Of a stretch of 64,000 bases of DNA, positions 51,651 through 52,677 are shown piece after piece. Numbering within the stretch: position 1 is the stretch's first letter; every line of letters begins with the position of its first letter. The position numbers and the translations under genes were made by a program. The notes beneath the pieces were generated by a model. That model made no database searches, was not told the DNA's origin, and saw nothing but the letters and a program-made list of their open reading frames with translations. The DNA is taken from positions 1,860,001 to 1,924,000 of the forward strand of contig CP013099.1 in NCBI GenBank assembly GCA_001447805.1, written 5' to 3'. This DNA comes from Candidatus Tenderia electrophaga. Lineage in GTDB: Bacteria; Pseudomonadota; Gammaproteobacteria; Tenderiales; Tenderiaceae.

Positions 51651-51726
<76 letters not shown>

Positions 51727-51797: not shown

Positions 51798-51871
51798 GGC
51801 TGGGTGGCAGAGTGGCTATGCAGCGGCCTGCAAAGCCGTGGACGGCGGTTCGATTCCGCCCTCAGCCTCCA
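51798..51871 (+). tRNA. tRNA-Cys(GCA)
   Basis: A 74-nt cloverleaf with acceptor GGCTGGG, anticodon GCA at 51830-51832, T-loop GTTCGATTC and encoded CCA. Position matches E. coli cysT. Confidence 0.96.
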
Positions 51872-51941
51872 TTGTTCTAGTAGTTGTAACAAGCAAGTCA
51901 CCTATAGCCCGGGTGGCGAAATTGGTAGACGCAAGGGACTT

Positions 51942-52537
51942 AAATATCTGAGCACCCAGGCTGGAAACACCTGGCGTGAATGGAGTCAAATTCGGGGAAA
52001 CCTCAGCGCATCCGGCGGTGGCAATCCCGAGCTAAGTCCTGGTTCTGTTTTTGCTTCGATACGTCGGAGTAAGGGCATGGCAGTTGGGGCAGAGAAGACG
52101 CAGGTTTTCTAATCTATTGTCTTTGTTGTTGCCATTGACATGGTCAAGCTCAAGGGGGATCGGCGTGTTTTAGCCGACGGGTGTTGTTGCAGAGGCTGCA
52201 ACGGTGCTCGAACATGCCCTCTTTTAAAAGTCTTCTTTTCAATGTGCAAGATTGAATATGGACTTTGTTGGACAGGCAATCACCGCTTGATGTTTTACGC
52301 GGCAGAGCTTGTCCTGTGTTCCAGGCTTGGCCTTTGAAATGGGATGTACCTAATTGGAAATGATTGATGGCCGCTTTCCTTAGAACATCATCGTTGCCCC
52401 CATTGCCAAGACCAGGAAAAGTGTAGAGACTTGACGGCTCCCGCCTACGTCATGCTTGCATGATACGGTGAAGAGAAAGTCCAGACCACAAATGCGTTTT
52501 CAATGAAAATGCAGCAGCGAAAGCTGTAGTGGGTAAG
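51942..52537 (+). ncRNA. Group I self-splicing intron in the tRNA-Leu(UAA) anticodon
   Basis: The intron opens AAATATCTGAGC, with the exon end U51941 able to form the required U-G pair with G51950 (exon CUU with guide GAG). Core elements are in order: P (AATTCGGGGAAACC, 51989-52002), Q (GGCAATCCCGAGCTAAG, 52020-52036), R (GTGTAGAGACTTGACGG, 52421-52437) and S (AAGAGAAAGTCC, 52471-52482). P7 forms between GACTT (52428-52432) and AAGTC (52477-52481). The last base is G52537, the omega-G. The core resembles the cyanobacterial tRNA-Leu(UAA) intron. The segment between Q and R is about 380 bases and holds an antisense HNH gene remnant. Confidence 0.92.
52032..52449 (-). pseudogene. Decayed HNH homing endonuclease gene, antisense inside the intron
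   Basis: On the minus strand, frame A (52449 down to a TGA at 52150-52152) encodes an N-terminal part with LGTSHFKGQAWNTGQ, then LKRRLLKEGMFEHRCSLC. Frame B (open from 52169 to TAG at 52032-52034) continues with IPLELDHVNGNNKDNRLEN and LRLLCPNCHALTPTYRSK. Together they give the HNH residues (Asp-His, Asn, His) and both zinc-binding Cys pairs. One extra base in a five-C run (52154-52158) breaks the frame. No start codon is found before the conserved part; an in-frame TGA lies at 52450-52452. The coding region overlaps the Q and R core elements. Confidence 0.85.
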
Positions 52538-52677
52538 AAAATCCCTCGACTGGAGACGGTCGTGCCGGTTCGATTCCGGCCCCGGGCACCATCTCGTGAT
52601 TCCCGCTTTCTTCTTTTCTTGCTCAAGCTCATAGATTAAAGTGAGGTGACGGTTATCGGTCATCAAAAGGATTCTGG

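Follow-up and report, generated by a model that had tools for sequence, protein, structure and literature searches.

Textbooks present the tRNA-Leu(UAA) intron as ancient and immobile, and its origin, by inheritance or by transfer, has been disputed for decades. The locus described here raises the question of how an intron came to occupy the same site in a gammaproteobacterium, Candidatus Tenderia electrophaga, and why it is retained. The window, i.e., the whole stretch of DNA that was analysed, comprised 64,000 nt of contig CP013099.1.

The joined exons were recognized by ARAGORN as an 89-nt tRNA-Leu(taa), so the gene is split between U34 and A35 (Table 1). Both exons were perfect, and the 596-nt insert lay exactly where the original prediction had placed it, at the classic cyanobacterial and plastid insertion point after U34. 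The split gene belongs to a Gly-Cys-Leu tRNA cluster, downstream of which lies an unrelated peptidase-like gene (name read from the ORF). It was missed when ARAGORN without introns and Rfam at the gathering score were run on the window. When introns were allowed, ARAGORN called the split tRNA as Phe(aaa); this call was rejected as a two-base shift. In the genome (3.76 Mb in 2 contigs), which has a listed completeness of 100%, the remaining tRNA-Leu genes had the anticodons CAA, UAG, CAG and GAG, and no second UAA gene was found, as the original prediction had envisaged. UUA codons accounted for 185 of the 15,761 codons in long ORFs of the window. With UUA codons in use and the split gene as the only UAA gene, the cell very probably depends on splicing for its UUA-reading tRNA.

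Table 1. Features of the split tRNA-Leu(UAA) gene and its intron (positions in the window).
Feature	Position	Strand	Remark
tRNA-Gly(GCC), opens Gly-Cys-Leu cluster	51651..51726	+	ARAGORN
tRNA-Cys(GCA)	51798..51871	+	ARAGORN
tRNA-Leu(UAA) 5' exon, last base U34	51907..51941	+	
Group I intron, 596 nt, last base G	51942..52537	+	
GAG pairing with exon CUU (P1, U.G at splice site)	51950..51952	+	kept in 21/21 aligned introns
P3 5' strand (GGAGUC)	51982..51987	+	21-intron alignment
P4 5' strand (P element)	51991..51997	+	21-intron alignment
Q element AATCCCGAGCTAAG	52023..52036	+	contains complement of HNH stop codon, CTA 52032-52034
P6 5' strand	52037..52043	+	21-intron alignment
Degenerate HNH homing endonuclease gene, loop L6	52032..52404	-	no start codon, frameshifted
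HNH relic, C-terminal HNH part	52032-52169	-	
HNH relic, N-terminal part	about 52162-52404	-	
P6 3' strand	52411..52417	+	21-intron alignment
R element GTGTAGAGACTTGACGG	52421..52437	+	
P7 5' strand	52428..52432	+	covariation in L017, L107, L261, L256
P3 3' strand	52436..52441	+	21-intron alignment
P7 3' strand (S element)	52477..52481	+	21-intron alignment
P9 domain	52485..52534	+	21-intron alignment
tRNA-Leu(UAA) 3' exon including CCA	52538..52591	+	

The insert had been predicted to be a group I intron with a P7 pairing and a terminal G, and both features were found. In a structure alignment of 21 introns of this family, which included that of the window and had L6 trimmed, 97.0% of the cells were paired across P1, P2-P6, the P3/P7 pseudoknot, P8 and P9. 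The number of two-sided changes was 159, versus 44 ± 6 in shuffles, and it fell to 19-38 when the structure was slid by one to three columns. P7 covaried, and the U.G pair at the splice site was present in every intron of the alignment. RNAalifold initially paired exon GGACU with S, and this pairing was replaced by P1 and P7. The RF00028 model gave the intron 19.7 bits (E 0.014), below the gathering score of 50, and skipped the true R element in its alignment; the nearest relative lacking a homing gene (L014) scored 50.2 bits, above the gathering score. The low score of the window is due to the long L6 insert, which puts the R element beyond reach. By eye, the core is presumably similar to that of the Azoarcus intron. 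Judged from sequence and predicted fold, the insert is most likely a self-splicing group I intron of the tRNA-anticodon type.

In L6, approximately 375 nt of the intron were, read on the minus strand, the remains of an HNH gene, which the original prediction had overlooked. The minus strand of L6 matched the PHROGs family phrog_10822 (HNH endonuclease) with E 5e-33, and a profile of intronic HNH proteins matched the relic in two frames (E 6.5e-28 and 3.2e-25). With a profile made from intact intronic copies, the relic was the sole significant match in the genome. Its translation reads ...LKRRLLKEGMFEHRCSLCNNT... in one frame and, after a frame change, ...PIPLELDHVNGNNKDNRLENLRLLCPNCHALTPTYRSKN. 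The catalytic residues remain readable, an HNH motif with a catalytic His and zinc-binding Cys pairs could be recognised, and Cys and His columns were invariant across 40 relatives. Compared with the intact gene of G136, about 112 nt (about 35 codons) of the 5' end were absent, and frame-changing indels were present. With two frames, no start and this 5' deletion, the locus contains no intact HNH open frame, and the gene must be considered a relic. A wholly chance antisense frame was rejected because two frames matched one protein family and intact orthologues were found in the same place.

Among 369 genomes of the class that were searched, G136, G273, G104 and G188 had open antisense frames of about 154 codons in the same loop, and intact antisense copies of this length occupied L6 of the tRNA-Leu(UAA) intron in over 20 further contigs. 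For some of them, a good ribosome-binding site preceded the gene, as in L065 (AAAGGAG ahead of ATG). In three unsaturated pairs of intact copies, dN/dS was 0.07-0.14, which on the sequence evidence places such copies under constraint. The stop codon lay inside the Q element in the gammaproteobacterial intronic copies inspected, where TAG ran on into CTCGG, complementary to Q (CTCGGT in L094); the sole exception among them was L111, which had a premature stop. Broken copies were also found in L125 and L171. The sequence search of PDB and NCBIfam returned no close HNH relatives. The model of the predicted enzyme had a mean pLDDT of 88; its N-terminal helical part aligned to helix-turn-helix domains, and its C-terminal part aligned weakly to HNH nucleases (e.g., Gme HNH, Z 4.5). 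All of these fold matches had Z values under 6, so they serve as a lead only.

When 84,980 named genomes were scanned with the HNH alignment and the tRNAs and introns neighbouring the best 80 bacterial homologues were typed by ARAGORN, tRNA-Leu(UAA) was found to contain or adjoin the HNH gene in about 76 of these 80 loci. At 27 loci the gene ran antisense within tRNA-Leu(UAA) introns 672-1099 nt long, at four it had the sense orientation within such an intron, and at another four it was convergent with and adjoined an intron-bearing tRNA-Leu(UAA). At 39 loci it immediately preceded, on the 5' side and in the same orientation, an intronless tRNA-Leu(UAA), usually by no more than 35 nt. L106 proved to be an intronic copy for which the ARAGORN call was off by two bases, L168 ended at a contig edge with the R element visible, and L156, L157 and L161 were at tRNA-Leu(UAG); L128 was the only locus of the 80 that showed no tRNA. 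In viral contigs, the gene was linked to tRNA-Leu(UAA) in 62 of 80 cases, and many copies were located about 30-80 nt downstream of the tRNA. Since the scan patterns were protein patterns, the link to one tRNA gene was not built in. The attachment of this HNH family to tRNA-Leu(UAA) appears to be almost exclusive.

Several arrangements at these loci were observed in addition. Sense-orientation intronic members of the family (L124, L126, L131, L137, L210, L229, L236 and L237) had hosts that included Armatimonadota and viral contigs. In the 1099-nt intron of L125 (Acidobacteria), the antisense HNH in L6 was broken, and a second HNH-like open frame, in sense orientation, lay in the P5 region within the core's 5' half. 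The copies 5' of an intronless tRNA-Leu(UAA), among them L134, L138, L146, L123 and L136, were often placed between tRNA-Cys and tRNA-Leu, and in Patescibacteria, mycobacteria and Hymenobacter the HNH frame ended a few bases from the 5' end of the tRNA. In G253, a convergent fragment of the HNH C-terminus (L082:1360-1600) was found about 60 nt downstream of an intronless tRNA-Leu(UAA); it is probably a relic of a past element.

The distribution of tRNA-Leu(UAA) introns was sporadic. The congeners G001, G005 and G006 had an intronless tRNA-Leu(UAA) in the same tRNA cluster, and the gene of G001 was identical to the spliced tRNA of the window at 86 of 89 positions. The contigs with antisense intronic HNH copies were assigned to Gammaproteobacteria, Acidobacteriota, Fermentibacterota and Cyanobacteria (two), and one was a viral contig (L175); for metagenome bins such assignments can be wrong (one host label was Klebsiella and one Alphaproteobacteria). 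The genes flanking L175 gave no match in PHROGs, so that its assignment as viral comes from IMG/VR. For the cyanobacterial L121, contamination was rejected in view of its ndhL- and trpA-like neighbours (read from ORFs) and of a second cyanobacterial genome of the order (G393, L261), which carried an intact HNH copy. The cyanobacterial host of an HNH-bearing intron is thus considered safe.

Other tRNA introns came to light in the same material. In the gammaproteobacterium G017, introns were present in tRNA-Leu(CAA) and tRNA-Ile(CAU) (L045 and L046; exons read by eye), and its tRNA-Leu(UAA) was intact and intronless. Gammaproteobacterial tRNA-Arg(CCU) group I introns without a homing gene were found at L083 and L086, and the viral contigs L185 and L186 had a short tRNA-Leu(UAA) intron adjoining the HNH gene of this family. 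The cultured Agrobacterium phage Atu_ph07 (L294:775-1136) contained a tRNA-Leu(UAA) split by an unannotated 278-nt intron. In Gordonia phage Daredevil (L295:822-1133), a tRNA-Lys(UUU) called by ARAGORN was split by an unannotated 238-nt insert with group I-like P, Q, R and S elements, near an integrase gene. According to a 2014 review, phage introns were to that date known only in protein genes (PMC3984707).

The original prediction had related the intron to the classic cyanobacterial one. In a core tree of 66 introns and 221 columns, 13 classic cyanobacterial introns formed a separate clade (100/100) on a long branch, and a 98/95 split divided them from the family of the window; on this tree, the core of the window is a lineage separate from the classic cyanobacterial intron. 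A second group of cyanobacterial introns, with and without HNH, lay on the side of the proteobacterial family in the same 98/95 split, and the introns of L185 and L186 grouped with the classic cyanobacterial ones (98/95). The core nearest to that of the window was L110, the named counterpart of G136 (86%). Cores with and without a homing gene were interspersed, with 15 changes on the tree. In the HNH tree, in which many branches were weak, the window was placed among gammaproteobacterial intronic copies, and the acidobacterial L107 and L114 lay inside this clade. Free-standing HNH copies beside introns lacking a homing gene were nested in the intronic clade, with support values of 98 and 95. 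The trees, the interspersed homing genes and the intronless congeners fit the known cycle of gain, decay and loss described for homing elements (PMC1995217). The predicted gain by transfer or homing is supported by the sporadic distribution, the intronless congeners and the homing-gene relic.

The distances of core and HNH were not correlated among 19 gammaproteobacterial introns (r 0.13; 920 of 5000 shuffles were as high), so enzyme and intron may not always move as a unit, and they may exchange partners. Across phyla, for all 25 introns, r was 0.58, which was reached in 0 of 5000 shuffles.

It is highly likely that the intron of the window derives from a mobile group I intron, that its homing gene has died and that it is kept for the splicing of the sole UUA-decoding tRNA. 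The ancestor would have belonged to a mobile intron family whose P6 loop encoded, on the opposite strand, an HNH enzyme with a predicted N-terminal helix-turn-helix. Judging from the linkage, intact enzymes would recognise the tRNA-Leu(UAA) gene and cut intronless alleles, and repair after the cut would copy in the intron, i.e., homing, or the HNH gene itself. In the window, the homing gene was presumably killed by the 5' deletion and the frame-changing indels and the ribozyme core remained intact, so the intron would now be immobile; it would persist because the only tRNA that reads UUA could not be made without self-splicing. Counted against this explanation were the uncorrelated distances within gammaproteobacteria and the score of the window below the Rfam gathering threshold, the latter owing to the L6 insert.

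Those uncorrelated distances would also be expected if the HNH were a parasite of the tRNA-Leu(UAA) locus in its own right and had entered the intron loop on repeated, independent occasions, with the spread of the intron being incidental. The 39 of 80 bacterial homologues placed just 5' of an intronless gene, the many viral copies a short distance downstream of the tRNA and the nesting of the free-standing L093, L095, L096 and L116 inside the intronic clade point in this direction too. However, almost all gammaproteobacterial intronic copies share a fixed antisense point with the stop in the Q element, which suggests one founding insertion followed by travel, and the cross-phyla correlation likewise argues against repeated landing. 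We regard this alternative as possible but rather doubtful.

Transfer of the classic cyanobacterial or plastid intron into a gammaproteobacterium, for which the identical gene and insertion site speak, is hardly credible given that the classic introns have a clade of their own and that the cyanobacterial introns grouping with the window are a second lineage. Equally improbable is that the split tRNA gene is defunct and carries the insert as an unspliced scar: the broken homing gene does indicate that the element is partly decayed, but the exons are perfect, the core pairs like those of intact relatives, no other UAA tRNA-Leu gene was found in the genome and UUA codons are used. Beyond the mobile-intron reading of the window itself, we lean, with some reserve, towards a broader proposal, namely that one HNH lineage is a dedicated parasite of tRNA-Leu(UAA) across many bacterial phyla and phages, either free-standing or lying antisense or sense in its intron, and that it drove the spread of a second, mobile intron lineage among proteobacteria, acidobacteria, cyanobacteria and phages.

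In the open-access literature, no HNH gene in a tRNA-Leu intron, no antisense homing gene in a bacterial intron and no HNH family tied to tRNA-Leu(UAA) was found; within that literature, the antisense HNH and the attachment of its family to tRNA-Leu(UAA) provisionally appear to be unreported. With its homing gene intact and with members in several phyla, cyanobacteria among them, a sister family at this site would provide a concrete, testable engine of transfer. The window would represent one step of the gain-decay cycle, in which the homing gene is dead, the ribozyme is live and the tRNA is sole and essential. The near-exclusive linkage to one tRNA gene makes the target site easy to predict and test.

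Among known systems, the classic cyanobacterial and plastid tRNA-Leu(UAA) intron (L262) is like that of the window in gene, insertion point, P1-P9 plan and RF00028 family, but it belongs to the separate core clade, its P3, P4 and P7 sequences differ, and to our knowledge it is ORF-less. The IC3 introns of Azoarcus tRNA-Ile(CAU) and Agrobacterium tRNA-Arg(CCU) also lie in the anticodon loop and have similar P, Q, R and S elements, whereas their tRNAs and sites differ; they too are ORF-less as far as we know. A group I intron in the tRNA-Leu(UAA) of a gammaproteobacterium was reportedly described in a 2002 J. Bacteriol. paper. The intron of the window had been predicted to be new for proteobacteria, which was not borne out, since putative group I introns in tRNA-Leu(UAA) of Thiomargarita and Maribeggiatoa, alike in host gene and host class, have been published (PMC4853749). 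The intron type is not determined in that paper, which is not known to mention a homing gene (PMC4853749). The Synechocystis tRNA-fMet intron resembles that of the window as a group I intron in a tRNA that carries a homing gene, but its enzyme, I-Ssp6803I, is of the PD-(D/E)XK type (PMC1995217), whereas the relic of the window is HNH in tRNA-Leu(UAA). In the Didymium S956-2 nuclear rDNA introns, homing genes are likewise located in peripheral loops opposite the ribozyme strand, although in eukaryotic rRNA genes rather than in a bacterial tRNA (PMC3679873). HNH and SegB endonucleases of phage and mycobacterial tRNA clusters are also homing nucleases linked to tRNA genes; unlike the family of the window, they are not tied to one tRNA gene or intron (PMC6582537).
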